10,603 nucleotides of DNA from the NCBI GenBank assembly GCA_943327025.2, contig CALPVO020000056.1, forward strand, positions 1 through 10,603. The letters are read 5' to 3'. Every line of letters begins with the position of its first letter. The stretch's first letter is position 1. Source of the DNA: Janthinobacterium lividum (GTDB lineage Bacteria; Pseudomonadota; Gammaproteobacteria; Steroidobacterales; Steroidobacteraceae). A program made the position numbers and the translations under genes. A model generated the notes under the pieces. It ran no database searches, was not told the DNA's origin, and saw only the letters and a list, made by a program, of their open reading frames with translations. This document shows, piece after piece, positions 4,547 through 10,482 of the stretch.

Positions 4547-4930
4547 TTAGTCGCGCGGACCGCGCTGCACGTGCACTTTCACGCCGCCGGGCTGCCCGAA
4601 CAGGGCATTACCCACGGCACCAGCAATGCCGATGACTAACGAGGCCCAGAGCGCCGGCCAAAAACCAGCGACGGTCATGCCATCCAGCATCCACGCCACC
4701 AACCCCACCATCCAGGCATTGATGACCAACAAGAAGATGCCCAGCGTGACGACCGCCAAAGGGAGCGTCAACAACATGAGCAGCGGCCGCACCGTGGCGT
4801 TCACCACACCCAGCAACAGACCGGCCATCAACAGCGTGGCTGGTGTATCGACACTGATGCCATCCACCCATGCAGTCGCCAACCACAACCCCAGCGCGGC
4901 AAATACCGCGCGTAACACGAACGCCGTCAC
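4547..4930 (-). CDS. Phage holin family 4 (YvlD-like) small membrane protein
   Basis: This is a hydrophobic protein of 127 residues with about four membrane helices. It matches the YvlD / 'phage holin family' (PF04020 type) pattern: VLRAVFAALGLWLATAWVDGI, then the hallmark LLLGVVNATVRPLLMLLTLPLAVVTLGIFLLVINAWM, and LDGMTVAGFWPALWASLVIGI. The family name derives from weak similarity to phage holins. Most members are chromosomal membrane proteins of unknown role, and nothing phage-like is nearby. The start is GTG at 4930-4928, overlapping the stop of the upstream amidohydrolase-like gene (GTGA), with GGAGA about 8 nt upstream. This makes translational coupling likely. The protein is the last member of a three-gene minus-strand operon. 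Confidence 0.88.
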   Translation of the reverse strand: MTAFVLRAVFAALGLWLATAWVDGISVDTPATLLMAGLLLGVVNATVRPLLMLLTLPLAVVTLGIFLLVINAWMVGLVAWMLDGMTVAGFWPALWASLVIGIAGAVGNALFGQPGGVKVHVQRGPRD

Positions 4931-6246
4931 TTCATTCTCCTGCCAGCAGCAAACACCAAGGCCACTTCCCGCAACAAGCCAATATCCTCGAGCACTGGGC
5001 CGCGCACCGCAATGATATCGGCAACGCCCCCCGGAACCAGAACACCCTGACGACCGACTGCTGCAGCGGCATCCACCGTGGCGGCACGCAGCGCTTCTTC
5101 AGAAGTGAGGCCGGCCTCGCGCACCAACGCAAAGATTTCCTCGTGCAGCGCCAGCGCTTGCGGCAGTGCCGACTGCCCCGCTGCACTGCCTGTCACCACA
5201 CGCGCACCTGCCGCGCGCAAGGCCCGGACCCGGGCGCCGGCAGATTGGCTCCGCAACTGCGCGTAAGGCGGTGGCGCCAACAACGAATAAGGCGTCCAGG
5301 AAGCGCGCAAATCCTGCGCCAGCAAGGCAGGTAGAGCCTGGAACACCGCCGGCGAGTCTAGTGGTTCGGCATCTACCGACCAGCGCCGCCAAGTGGCCAA
5401 CGGCGCCAGTTGCGGCGCCCACCAGACGATTTGCCCCGCGGCGACGCGTGCTTGCACGGCTGCCAGCGCTTCCGGCGGCCAATCGGGGGCCGTGTCGAGG
5501 CCCAAACCCAGCAGGCCATCCATGCCGGCTGCCATGGCCGGAGCGACCCCGGAGGCCCAACGCAGTTCGGCCCACACCGGGCGACTCGCCGCATGCGCGA
5601 GCGCCACCATCGACTGCAATTCTTCGGGCGTCCACTCCTCGGGAGCAGCCACCACGAAAGCATCCACCCCATCATCCAACCACTGCCTCATGGCGGCAGT
5701 CGCTTCCGCCACAGATTGCACGGTTCGTCGCCCGGTGGCATCGGGCTCGGGATGTCCCTGCCGTTCCAGTACTGGGGCGGCCACCACGAGCCGCGGACCG
5801 GGGACCCGCTTTTCCGCCACCCTTCGCCGCAAATCCAGCGCCGTGGCTGCCGGCGCGCCCACTTCGCGCACGGTGGTCACCCCGGCGGTGAGTTGCACGC
5901 CCAGCGTCCAGGGCATGACGACACGAGCTGCCAAGGGGCGCAGGATGGGGTCGGCCTTCGCGGGATTACCGTGCCCTAATCGCCACGACTGGACCGCCAG
6001 GTCCACCAAGCCCGGCAGGACGGTCATACCTTCCGTACTGATGATTTGGGCTCCGTCGGGCACGGGCGTCGAGGCCATGGGCCCGAGCGCCAGAATGGTG
6101 TCGCCCTCGATGACCACCACCCCGTTGGGGATGGCCGCGCCGGCGCCGGTCCAGACTGTGCCACCCACCAACGCCACCGGCGGCGCAGCGGCAAAGGCTG
6201 CTGACCAGCATAGGCAACCCGACAGGAATAAAGCGATACCGCGCAT
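4927..6246 (-). CDS. Exported amidohydrolase-like protein lacking the family's metal ligands (probable pseudoenzyme)
   Basis: This 439-residue protein begins with a signal peptide (MRGIALFLSGCLCWSAAFAAAP, probable cleavage after AFA or nearby). The fold is recognisable: VALVGGTVWTGAGAAIPNGVVVIEGDTILALG, then EGMTVLPGLVDL (72-83), GVTTVREVGAP (122-132), and the C-terminal block LHEEIFALVREAGLTSEEALRAATVDAA...GVLVPGGVADIIAV of metal-dependent amidohydrolases. The catalytic residues are absent: the HxH after 'PGLVD' is AVQ (84-86), the bridging Lys is Val198, the two later His positions are Glu227 and Gly247, and the final Asp is Ala355. The frame is intact, so this is not simple decay. ATG 6246 is chosen because it starts the signal peptide and overlaps the upstream stop (TAATG). 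It may act as a periplasmic binding or scaffold protein; function unknown. Confidence 0.85.
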   Translation of the reverse strand: MRGIALFLSGCLCWSAAFAAAPPVALVGGTVWTGAGAAIPNGVVVIEGDTILALGPMASTPVPDGAQIISTEGMTVLPGLVDLAVQSWRLGHGNPAKADPILRPLAARVVMPWTLGVQLTAGVTTVREVGAPAATALDLRRRVAEKRVPGPRLVVAAPVLERQGHPEPDATGRRTVQSVAEATAAMRQWLDDGVDAFVVAAPEEWTPEELQSMVALAHAASRPVWAELRWASGVAPAMAAGMDGLLGLGLDTAPDWPPEALAAVQARVAAGQIVWWAPQLAPLATWRRWSVDAEPLDSPAVFQALPALLAQDLRASWTPYSLLAPPPYAQLRSQSAGARVRALRAAGARVVTGSAAGQSALPQALALHEEIFALVREAGLTSEEALRAATVDAAAAVGRQGVLVPGGVADIIAVRGPVLEDIGLLREVALVFAAGRRMK

Positions 6247-6736: not shown

Positions 6737-9070
6737 TTACCCGCTGACCGAGGATTCCGTCGGCAACGGAGCAAGCGCTGGTAGCACCAGCGTAGTCGCA
6801 GCCTTGGGGGCGGGTGGCACCAGTTCATACATGGCTAGGTCCTCCAGCACTTGCCGGAACGGTACCGCGCGACCCACTTCATAGCCTTGGCCGTAGACAC
6901 AGCCCAACTCTTGGGAGCGCAGCCGCAGCGCTTCGGTCTCCACCGACTTCGCCACCGTGTCCAGTCCGCGCGATGCGCACCACTGCAACATGCCACGGAC
7001 GGCGGTATCCGCGGCCGAATCTTCGAGCATGACCCGCAAGTCCGCGCCGTTGAGCTTCACCTCGGTGAGCGGCAAGGAAAGATCCGCAAGGGCTTCAGCC
7101 ACGTCCAAGTCGAACTCATCCAGTGCCACGCCGCAGCCCAGTGCGCGCAATTGCTGGATGGCGTCGATAATGACGGGCCATTGAGGTGCCGTTGGTTGCA
7201 TGGCTGCCGCAGGAATATCGAACACCAGCACATCGGGGGGCAGGCCGGTGCTGACCAGTCGTTCGCCGAGTTCCCCCAAGAAAGCCGAAGCTGCTGTCGC
7301 ACTACCCAGCGTGTTCGCGGAGAGGTTGACGGCGAAACGGGCCAGACGACGACCCACGACTTCCGTCTGCGAAGACAAGGCATCGATGACATTGCGTACT
7401 ACCCAGCGGTCGATGGCGGGCAGCAGCCCAGCCTCGGCTGCCAGCGGCATCCAGCGGTCTGGCGAAAGCAGGTCGCCGCCATCCGCCGGCAAGCGCAGCA
7501 GCAATTCAAAGCGTGGCTCCCCATAGCCTTGCAAGGGCAACATGGGCTGCGCCATGAGGGTGGGTGCCTCCATCGTGACAGCACGCATCAACCGTTCCAG
7601 CAGCGGCGCCTCGAGCACGTCTTGGGTGCGCCCCAAGGGAACGGCCGCTTCGGCCCAGCACTGCACACGCCCACGGCCCGGCTGCTTGGCTTGGCGGCAA
7701 GCCGCCTCCGCAAACGCCAAGGCGCGTGCCAGCGCGTCATGCCATCCGCCATCCGTGTCTCGCGTGGACAGGTTGGCAATGCCGATACCGGCGTTCACCA
7801 CAACCTGCCCTTCGCCGCGACGGTAGGTGAGTTCCGCAACGGCTTTGCTGAGTTCTTCAGCCACAGAAGTGGCAACTTCCAAGGTGGTGAGCGGCAAGCA
7901 AACTACCATGCGGCCACCATCCAGACGCCCCGCCACGGCACCGCGCGGCAAGTGGCGACGCACTACCTCCGCTACACGTAGCAGGACCTCATCGCCGACC
8001 GGCAGTCCATAGCGCTCGTTGATGTCCTGAAGGCCATCGACGTCGAGGAACAGCAACTGGTGCACACCATAACTACTACAGATCAGTTCGGCCTGACGCT
8101 CGAACTCGACCCGCATCGGCAGGCCGGTATTCGCGTCGTAGCGCTGATCGAGCAGATCGCAGATGCGACGCGCCACCCATTCGGCAATACGCAAGGCGCG
8201 CACCCCGAAAGCCGGCGCGCTAGGCGGTGCAAAGAAAGCGACAAAACCGACCACACGCTGCCCGCGGCGGCGGATAGGCACGCTCACCACGCGGTGCGAA
8301 CCGCCTGGGTCATCCTTGCGGGTGGAACCCACCAGCGGTTGCTGATTCATGCGGGCGTAGTTGAGAAGATGGCGATGTAGCGCGCTAACCAGTCGCGGCG
8401 CTTCGGGAGCGCCCGGCGTATCCGCGCCGTTTGGCGAACGCTGGGTGCGCAAGACGGCCAAACCCTTGTCCGGTACCACCAGCGCACCGATGGTCGCTTC
8501 CATAGGCTTCAAGGCCGCCTCGAGCAACCCGGCCGGGTCGTCCACCTGGCCTTCGAGGGCCGAAAGATCGACGAGCGTATCCGCCTCGCCGGTACCGCGG
8601 GTAGCAAGCCCCACGCGTTGAATGGCATCCCGCAGCAGCAATTCGCGCTGCAGCACTTCCAGCGCTGGGCGTACCAAGCTCAGCACCAAGGAAAAGGGTC
8701 GCGCCTCGCGCGTTCCAGGCACGAAAAATCCGACAGCGGCCAGCGGCCGCGCTTCTTCACCACGCAAGCAGAAGGTATAAATCATGGCGTCATTAGCGGG
8801 TTCCGCCGCGCCATCGAAACTGAAAGCATTACCTAACGGGCCACTGAGCACCGACTGGGCCGCAGCGCGCATTTCCTGCGGCTCCATACCTTCACCGTGG
8901 TAGAGCGGACGCAAGTCGGGCGAATAGATACAGATGTGGCGTGCTCGCGGCAGCAACATCTTCAACAATTGCGCATGCACATCGAGGGGCGCGCTGGCCA
9001 AGACCAACAAAGCTTCCGGAGTCGGAATGGCCGTCACCGTCAATGGTGAGGGAGGAGAGGTGTCTTCCAT
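6737..9070 (-). CDS. GAF-like/GGDEF/EAL protein with degenerate catalytic motifs
   Basis: This is a soluble cytoplasmic protein of 777 residues. Residues 1-300 look like a GAF-type sensory region in one or two parts (HICIYSPDLRPLYHGEG near 45-61; VVSVPIRRRGQRVVGFVAFF near 261-280). The GGDEF domain runs about 311-470: TGLPMRVEFER and FLDVDGLQDINERYGLPVGDEVL are recognisable, but the signature reads RLDGGRMVVCLP (GGDEF replaced by DGGRM, 384-388). The EAL domain runs about 485-750. The EAL motif is ELL (522-524); N582, D651, K672 and the GQGY segment (727-730) remain. The ITE glutamates are D618 and A621, DDFG is DEFD, KID is KLN, and VAEGVE is VAKSVE with Lys708. Neither synthesis nor hydrolysis of c-di-GMP is likely. 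A receptor or protein-interaction role, as for FimX or LapD, is inferred. The start is ATG 9070, without a clear ribosome binding site. Confidence 0.9.
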   Translation of the reverse strand: MEDTSPPSPLTVTAIPTPEALLVLASAPLDVHAQLLKMLLPRARHICIYSPDLRPLYHGEGMEPQEMRAAAQSVLSGPLGNAFSFDGAAEPANDAMIYTFCLRGEEARPLAAVGFFVPGTREARPFSLVLSLVRPALEVLQRELLLRDAIQRVGLATRGTGEADTLVDLSALEGQVDDPAGLLEAALKPMEATIGALVVPDKGLAVLRTQRSPNGADTPGAPEAPRLVSALHRHLLNYARMNQQPLVGSTRKDDPGGSHRVVSVPIRRRGQRVVGFVAFFAPPSAPAFGVRALRIAEWVARRICDLLDQRYDANTGLPMRVEFERQAELICSSYGVHQLLFLDVDGLQDINERYGLPVGDEVLLRVAEVVRRHLPRGAVAGRLDGGRMVVCLPLTTLEVATSVAEELSKAVAELTYRRGEGQVVVNAGIGIANLSTRDTDGGWHDALARALAFAEAACRQAKQPGRGRVQCWAEAAVPLGRTQDVLEAPLLERLMRAVTMEAPTLMAQPMLPLQGYGEPRFELLLRLPADGGDLLSPDRWMPLAAEAGLLPAIDRWVVRNVIDALSSQTEVVGRRLARFAVNLSANTLGSATAASAFLGELGERLVSTGLPPDVLVFDIPAAAMQPTAPQWPVIIDAIQQLRALGCGVALDEFDLDVAEALADLSLPLTEVKLNGADLRVMLEDSAADTAVRGMLQWCASRGLDTVAKSVETEALRLRSQELGCVYGQGYEVGRAVPFRQVLEDLAMYELVPPAPKAATTLVLPALAPLPTESSVSG

Positions 9071-9237: not shown

Positions 9238-10482
9238 CTAGCGCAGAAACTGGGACGGATTCACCGGCTTGCTGGCCCGCCCGCTTCCCTGACGAATCTC
9301 GAAGTACAAGGCCGCGCGCCCTTCACCCCCGGTATCGCCGACTTGGGCGATGGAATCGCCGGCCGCGACGGGGTCACCCACGGCTTTCAGCAACGCGGCG
9401 TTGTGCGCGTAAAGAGTAATCCAGCCACCGCCATGGTCGAGGATGAGTAGATTCCCCAACCCCTGCAGCCAGTCCGCATAGAGCACCCGCCCGGCATAAG
9501 GCGCGCGAACCGGCGTGCCCTCGGGCGCTGCAATGAGATGTCCGGCCCACTTGAGGCCGGCCGCCCTCGCCTGCCCGAAACGGGCGACCAGCGTGCCCGA
9601 CACCGGCCAAGGGAGTTGGCCGCGCAGCGCCGCAAACGCCCGCCCACCCGCGGGAGCCCGAAACGGCTTATCGACCACCGCTTGTTGCAAACGCTGGACG
9701 AGCCGGCCGACGCGGGCTTCCTGGCGCCGCAGGCGCTTCAATTCGGCGTCCCGGCTGGCCACCTGGGCGCGCGCCTCGGCTACCAAAAGGTCACGCGAAC
9801 GGCGCGCTTCTTCTAGCGACCCTACTTCGCCCGCACGCTCCGCCACCAGCGCACGGAGTTCTAGCTGTTGCGCGGCCAGGGCCGTGTCCAGCGTATCGAT
9901 GCGCTCGAGGGCCGAACGAATCTCCCGAATCTTCTCGGCGCGCGCACGCCCGAAGTAGCCGTACCAAGCCAGCAGACGCGGCAAAGCACCGGGGTCGTCG
10001 GACTGCAGCAGCAACCGCGCGGACTCGGCGCGCCCCGTGGAATAGGCGGCGCGCAGTTGCCCGGCCAGGGCGGCGCGCTGAGCATCCAGAGCATTCTTCT
10101 CACGGCGCTTTTCAGCGGCCAACTGGGCCTGCCGTCGCTCGGCAGCAGCCAGTTTCGAACGTACACCGTCGAGACGGGAACGGGCGCCGGCCACCTCTTG
10201 CTCGGCGCTACGCAACGCCTGTACCGCTTGGTCGCGCGCCTCCACGTCCTGTTCGAAGGCCTTCGCCACTTCGCGGATGCGGTCGCGTACCCGCGCGAGG
10301 TCCTGTTCGGCCTCAGCGGAGGGAGGAGGCGCCAGCTGGGCCATGGCAGGCGGGGCATAGCCGCCGCCTAGGAGGGTCAACCACGGCAACAACCACACCA
10401 ACGGCCGCCACGCCACGCCCGCGGCCTTGCGCAGACCGCAGAGCAGAGGCGTGGCAGCAGGCAGGTTGCGAATAGCAAGCAC
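9238..10482 (-). CDS. envC: Murein hydrolase activator EnvC
   Basis: This periplasmic protein of 414 residues (E. coli EnvC is about 420) is recruited to the divisome by FtsEX and activates the AmiA/AmiB amidases for septal peptidoglycan splitting. Residues 1-48 form a long N-terminus with a hydrophobic stretch ending AMA-Q (likely signal peptidase site). Residues 55-270 are Ala/Arg/Glu-rich coiled coil (DLARVRDRIREVAKAFEQ and onward). Residues 290-414 form a LytM/M23 domain (LPWPVSGTLVARFG, EGTPVRAPYAGRVLYADWLQGLGNLLILDHGGGWITLYAH). Metal ligands are missing as expected for EnvC: HxxxD reads W312...L316 and HLH reads ALY (391-393). The start is GTG 10482. A GTG at codon 23 would give a more usual signal peptide and is a real alternative. 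The gene diverges from the plus-strand gene at the right edge. Confidence 0.93.
   Translation of the reverse strand: MLAIRNLPAATPLLCGLRKAAGVAWRPLVWLLPWLTLLGGGYAPPAMAQLAPPPSAEAEQDLARVRDRIREVAKAFEQDVEARDQAVQALRSAEQEVAGARSRLDGVRSKLAAAERRQAQLAAEKRREKNALDAQRAALAGQLRAAYSTGRAESARLLLQSDDPGALPRLLAWYGYFGRARAEKIREIRSALERIDTLDTALAAQQLELRALVAERAGEVGSLEEARRSRDLLVAEARAQVASRDAELKRLRRQEARVGRLVQRLQQAVVDKPFRAPAGGRAFAALRGQLPWPVSGTLVARFGQARAAGLKWAGHLIAAPEGTPVRAPYAGRVLYADWLQGLGNLLILDHGGGWITLYAHNAALLKAVGDPVAAGDSIAQVGDTGGEGRAALYFEIRQGSGRASKPVNPSQFLR

Follow-up and report, generated by a model that had tools for sequence, protein, structure and literature searches.

What has become of a metal hydrolase that carries none of its metal ligands? 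The question is raised by a gene in a 10,603-nucleotide stretch of Janthinobacterium lividum (assembly GCA_943327025.2, contig CALPVO020000056.1), the whole of which we call the window. The gene lies on the minus strand (4927..6246). It is a single open frame of 439 codons plus stop without interruption, as an earlier note made from the sequence alone had described it. It encodes an apparently exported pseudo-amidohydrolase (P0001, 439 aa) in which every metal ligand is substituted according to the alignment, the structural model and the ligand counts.

We aligned 117 full-length sequences including the window protein with MAFFT; the four shorter ones of the 121 matches were left out. The columns of the intact relatives that hold HxH, Lys, His, His and Asp hold A84, Q86, V198, E227, G247 and A355 in the window protein, and the replacements that the earlier note had assigned by hand are exact. 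On the minus strand of the window the HxH position corresponds to the codons of A84-V85-Q86 (5989..5997), the carboxylated Lys to the codon of V198 (5653..5655), the third metal His to E227 within the codons of E227-L228-R229 (5560..5568), the fourth metal His to the codon of G247 (5506..5508) and the metal/catalytic Asp to the codon of A355 (5182..5184). The amidohydrolase superfamily signature at the enzyme level (HxH, Lys, His, His, Asp) is absent from the protein. All ligands were present in 34 of the 117 aligned sequences and the set was incomplete in the other 83. Related sequences were taken from the best 120 of 816 protein matches, the best 80 of 209 loci and genome searches, and across 246 of them the ligand counts were bimodal: none of the six was kept in 32 sequences, one in 57, two in 25 and three in none, while four or five were kept in five sequences (outgroup types or truncated) and all six in 127. 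These 246 include the window protein and its near copies; among the low rows, L163 and L164 are partial and L063_4840 is masked. In the ligand-lost rows column 198 is V, L, I or A, and the other site residues are mostly lost, with D at 201 and 203 remaining in about one third. The sister subclade of the one containing the window protein mostly retains the second His of HxH (20/40) and the last Asp (29/40). The whole window protein has four His (92, 165, 218 and 368), which do not cluster in the sequence. H92 is not a shifted ligand, because it is also invariant in 27/27 intact relatives, next to their own ligands.

The AlphaFold2 model of the window protein shows a complete fold with high confidence: a TIM barrel capped by a beta-sandwich of N- and C-terminal parts, which places the protein in the amidohydrolase superfamily at the fold level. 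The former ligand residues lie where strands 80-85, 196-200, 224-227, 244-246 and 348-350 (strands 1, 4, 5, 6 and 8 of the model) end C-terminally, or a few residues beyond. The C-terminal strand ends are where the metal ligands of this fold belong, so the model agrees with the alignment for A84, Q86, V198, E227, G247 and A355. The nearest matches in sequence and fold are of dipeptidase and prolidase types. The closest known proteins are the Xaa-Arg/Lys carboxypeptidase Cc2672 (3mtw), the prolidases 2qs8, 2p9b and 3feq and the amidohydrolases 9kov and 8ihq, all of which we take to be metal-dependent hydrolases, whereas the window protein is without any ligand. Its ancestor was a metal hydrolase of the dipeptidase/imidazolonepropionase-like kind, and all canonical metal ligands are gone. 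Against NF051886 (Xaa-Pro dipeptidase, Caulobacter type) it scored 106 bits, below the curated cut-off of 500 bits, and the intact relative P0112 likewise stayed below with 194 bits. Among the protein matches listed, those ligand-lost relatives that bear a name are mostly called 'imidazolonepropionase-like amidohydrolase', which is probably misleading for them.

The loss is not confined to the window. We searched 200 genomes from the family to which the window belongs, many of them incomplete drafts, and 38 gave matches at E 1e-30. A ligand-lost copy was found in 34 of these 38 (two only partial) under seven genus codes, so that the loss is shared across genera; the remaining four carry an intact copy only. 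We computed a tree of 85 representatives with the ligand columns removed (quick search, without bootstrap, unrooted), and all 50 ligand-lost rows fell on one side of a single branch with an SH-aLRT support of 100. The intact members are drawn from several phyla, which makes loss and not gain the natural direction. Judged from these sequences, the loss of the metal ligands appears to be one old event. A general loss across the class was rejected: in wider searches at 1e-40, covering 296 genomes of the order and 369 of the class and at a threshold that more divergent ligand-lost copies would escape, 19/19 relatives read outside the family were intact. The metagenome proteins among the best 120 matches mostly come without an organism name. 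In two genomes, G082 (L130) and G093 (L131), we observed an intact paralogue at a separate locus, while the conserved locus carries a ligand-lost copy.

In two close pairs the gene also shows purifying selection. The ratio of non-synonymous to synonymous substitution rates (dN/dS), calculated with three methods, was 0.15-0.19 against G052 and 0.06-0.08 against G035, and the expectation of a value below 1 was thus borne out in two close, unsaturated pairs. For eight genes including this one we detected ratios of 0.03-0.49 against G052, with the SRPBCC gene highest, and of 0.02-0.12 against G035. Against a third relative, G015, the ratio was 0.08-0.24 with saturated synonymous sites. The ligand-lost proteins form an orthologous group without catalytic residues under purifying selection (dN/dS from the two unsaturated pairs), as is expected of a pseudoenzyme.

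The overlapped operon described by the earlier note was found as well. Downstream, the start of a PF04020 membrane protein gene (4547..4930, minus strand) overlaps the stop of the pseudo-amidohydrolase gene (GTGA). Upstream, the stop of a gene for an SRPBCC protein (AHSA1-like, PF08327; 6246..6701, minus strand) shares one nucleotide with its start (TAATG). The two junction overlaps make translational coupling likely. Further upstream in the same orientation follow genes for a GGDEF-EAL protein (6737..9070) and an EnvC-like M23 protein (9238..10482), the latter with 178 bits under the EnvC cut-off of 270 bits. The PF04020 and SRPBCC neighbours matched no NCBIfam model at E 0.001, and neither a tRNA nor an Rfam scan of the window gave matches. 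By eye, the translation begins with a putative signal peptide (residues 1-19; 6190..6246) that has a lipobox-like stretch, LSGC, at residues 8-11; orthologues inspected by eye were mixed, some similar and some not. Given LSGC, we considered that the protein may be lipid-anchored instead of being exported with cleavage.

We examined 31 ligand-lost loci, one per genome. Where the contig permits, the recurrent order is EnvC-like, GGDEF-EAL, SRPBCC, pseudo-amidohydrolase and PF04020, followed by EamA, OPT and TatC on the opposite strand. A PF04020 gene follows downstream in the same orientation in 31/31 loci; in 28 of them its called open reading frame (ORF) begins within -166 to +61 nt of the pseudo-amidohydrolase stop, and in three the longest ORF extends further upstream. 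The other neighbours were EnvC (28 loci), GGDEF-EAL (25), EamA (28), OPT (29) and TatC (23). In L123, L124, L125, L129, L041 and L044 EnvC lies directly upstream (396-492 nt), with no SRPBCC or GGDEF-EAL gene in the stretch fetched. At 41 loci of intact relatives, with differing flank lengths, there was no match to the PF04020, SRPBCC, EnvC, EamA, TatB or TatC models; GGDEF-EAL occurred in seven (1.9 to 9.5 kb off) and OPT in one.

To compare the former active site between subclades, the entropy of column sets was contrasted with that of random sets of equal size. Across the 10 rows of the window's subclade, mean entropy was 0.38 in the 19 columns of the former active site and 0.59 in the 66 barrel-mouth columns, compared to 0.83 overall; in both cases 0.2% of the random sets were as low. 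The sample is small and related, and the column sets were selected manually or for being conserved in intact relatives. Seven Trp are invariant (10/10 rows) in this subclade: W32, W88, W205, W225, W256, W276 and W317; W113 and W289 occur in 9/10 rows and W230 in 8/10. The suggestion that Trp and Arg, among them those in WAELRW and VWWAP, could line a binding pocket thus held in part. In its favour are the conserved active-site columns, the invariant W88, W225, W256 and W317, and R229 in 9/10 rows. Of the VWWAP residues, W276 is invariant in the intact enzymes too and W275 is variable; the ligand columns by themselves are unremarkable, and in the sister subclade the former site is not conserved anew. 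On sequence grounds the pattern is consistent with a mouth that aromatic side chains reshaped in the window's subclade, and with a constraint on the body only in the sister.

We regard it as fairly probable that a former metal hydrolase has been kept as a non-catalytic exported protein with its mouth facing a ligand or partner, most likely together with the PF04020 protein in an envelope function. Retention in a non-catalytic role, which the earlier note had preferred to decay, is supported by the 34 genomes, the single-branch loss, the low dN/dS and the complete fold. The folded barrel-plus-beta-sandwich body would lie in the periplasm and turn the mouth of its former active site towards a ligand or another protein. 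From the gene order, the protein would work as adaptor or sensor in the envelope function together with the membrane protein of the overlapping PF04020 gene, and in the window's subclade the mouth would have been rebuilt as a conserved Trp-rich surface, suggesting one specific ligand. YvlD, a PF04020 (DUF360) protein, is on the list of the Bacillus sigma-W regulon (excerpt of PMC3498285) and among the Listeria genes altered by a bacteriocin (excerpt of PMC12791056). This occurrence of Firmicutes PF04020 proteins in envelope-stress responses, as far as the excerpts go, suggests an envelope role.

Several observations weigh against this explanation. Kept gene order need not imply joint function, and SRPBCC is present in 22 of the 31 ligand-lost loci and absent from nine. 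PF04020 was present in 15 of 17 genomes (15 family genomes without a match at 1e-30 and two from other families of the order), and the 15 PF04020 loci fetched from them showed no ligand-lost homologue (hidden Markov model search, E 1e-10); in 7/15 of these empty-site loci SRPBCC lies directly upstream of PF04020. The PF04020 and SRPBCC neighbours can therefore do without the pseudo-amidohydrolase, and a strict dependence of PF04020 on it was rejected. The re-conservation test is based on 10 related rows and on columns that were hand-chosen or conserved in intact relatives. In these rows conservation extends to the beta-sandwich as well (entropy 0.69, reached by 1.6% of random sets), and taken by themselves the six ligand columns are not unusual (0.62, reached by 25%). 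Among the 40 rows of the sister subclade, neither the active-site nor the mouth columns exceed chance conservation (78% and 75% of random sets as low), which leaves one pocket function common to all ligand-lost proteins unsupported. Foldseek's own superposition on 3mtw was looser (TM 0.73, 6.1 A). As a separate observation, the PF04020 match in G006 (L165, G006:C108:149950-150327) has one in-frame TGA.

The beta-sandwich of the sister subclade brings in a different explanation: a purely structural partner, whose outer surface assembles or stabilises PF04020 or an envelope complex while the mouth is irrelevant, like the inactive dihydroorotase chain of the Pseudomonas ATCase. We consider this possible, on the unlikely side. 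There the beta-sandwich is more conserved than random (0/5000 sets as low) and the mouth is not, and a bacterial precedent for such use of a dead amidohydrolase fold exists (excerpt of PMC7053772). However, few parts of the protein are as conserved in the window's subclade as the mouth and the former active site, and many scaffold residues are common to the intact relatives, so scaffold conservation is not specific. That the protein is still an enzyme, by metal-free catalysis or with a metal held by other residues, seems quite improbable to us. Polar residues are left near the old site by sequence position, and H92 and S354 are kept in almost all ligand-lost rows along with R229 in the window's subclade, but the few scattered His, the presence of H92 in intact enzymes and the occurrence of E or R at position 227 within the window's subclade speak against other chemistry.

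A decaying remnant on its way out would agree with the 166 of 200 family genomes in which the search at E 1e-30 gave no ligand-lost copy (many being incomplete drafts) and with the history of the locus. A quick tree from the proteins of the locus (no mixture model; data sufficed for 42 of 46 loci) needs two presence/absence changes and places the window's genus beside two empty loci. The gene occupies an identical position in the two carrier groups, whose copies fall into a single clade, and this is most simply explained by presence in the ancestor and two or more later losses; the locus tree is compatible with this and with transfer into the same site, and cannot separate them. Yet none of the 41 matches listed from the family search contains a stop codon, the loss on a single branch was followed by long divergence, and the fold is predicted with high confidence. 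Decay is thus highly improbable, and was rejected on the dN/dS well under 1 in the two close pairs. An artefact, either misaligned ligand columns or an error of sequencing or assembly, is hardly credible: the genome is a draft of 351 contigs and 75% complete, but G052, G035 and G015 are also non-ligand at these columns, and misalignment was rejected because the strand ends of the model and the bimodal counts agree with the columns.

The GGDEF-EAL neighbour shows a second change. We take its GGDEF motif and the DDFG-T/R-G loop of its EAL domain to be its catalytic features. The GGDEF motif is non-canonical in 29/29 loci aligned. Outside the window's genus 25/25 aligned loci keep the EAL loop; within it, 4/4 have lost it (DEFDLD or DNCTGA; the window has DEFDLD for DDFGTG), and the protein may be a receptor of cyclic di-GMP there. 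Catalytic features are lost in two genes of one apparent operon here, and this is the basis for a decidedly doubtful extension: an envelope-sensing unit of two pseudoenzymes, in which a periplasmic, Trp-lined former active site would bind one ligand, PF04020 would relay in the membrane, and the GGDEF-EAL protein would be a cyclic di-GMP receptor and not a phosphodiesterase.

The best precedents for inactive amidohydrolase folds in non-catalytic roles are CRMP-4 (excerpt of PMC4051505) and the Pseudomonas pseudo-dihydroorotase (pDHO; excerpt of PMC7053772). CRMPs have the amidohydrolase fold and a kept cavity, dihydropyrimidinase activity was not observed, and the carboxylated Lys is replaced by Leu, similar to column 198 here; they are cytosolic and CRMP-4 retains two of the six metal residues (excerpt of PMC4051505), whereas the window protein keeps none and looks exported. 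CRMPs are nearest to dihydropyrimidinase, and the window protein by best matches to dipeptidase-like enzymes. In the ATCase of Pseudomonas aeruginosa, pDHO is an inactive member of the fold needed by its partner enzyme (excerpt of PMC7053772). It has a fungal homologue, and an inactive bacterial amidohydrolase fold serving a partner is the likeness proposed for the window protein; pDHO belongs to a pyrimidine enzyme complex, and the window protein lies on a different amidohydrolase branch by best matches. The pDHO-ATCase complex is cytoplasmic, and the Pfam scan detected no ATCase among the nine window ORFs. For YvlD-type PF04020 proteins an amidohydrolase-fold partner is unmentioned in the excerpts of PMC3498285 and PMC12791056, and the pairing described here was seen in one gammaproteobacterial family. 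Judged from the listings of the open-access literature, with most subscription journals outside the coverage, we found no paper on such a ligand-lost lineage.

Dead amidohydrolase folds have so far been few cases such as the CRMPs and pseudo-dihydroorotase. Here we describe an apparently exported bacterial lineage in which all, or almost all, metal ligands disappeared in a single loss and which diversified within one family, beside one membrane-protein gene at every locus examined, with intact paralogues persisting in two of the same genomes. The matched live and dead copies, the empty-site genomes and the subclade with a re-conserved site make it possible to study the conversion of an enzyme pocket into a binding site.
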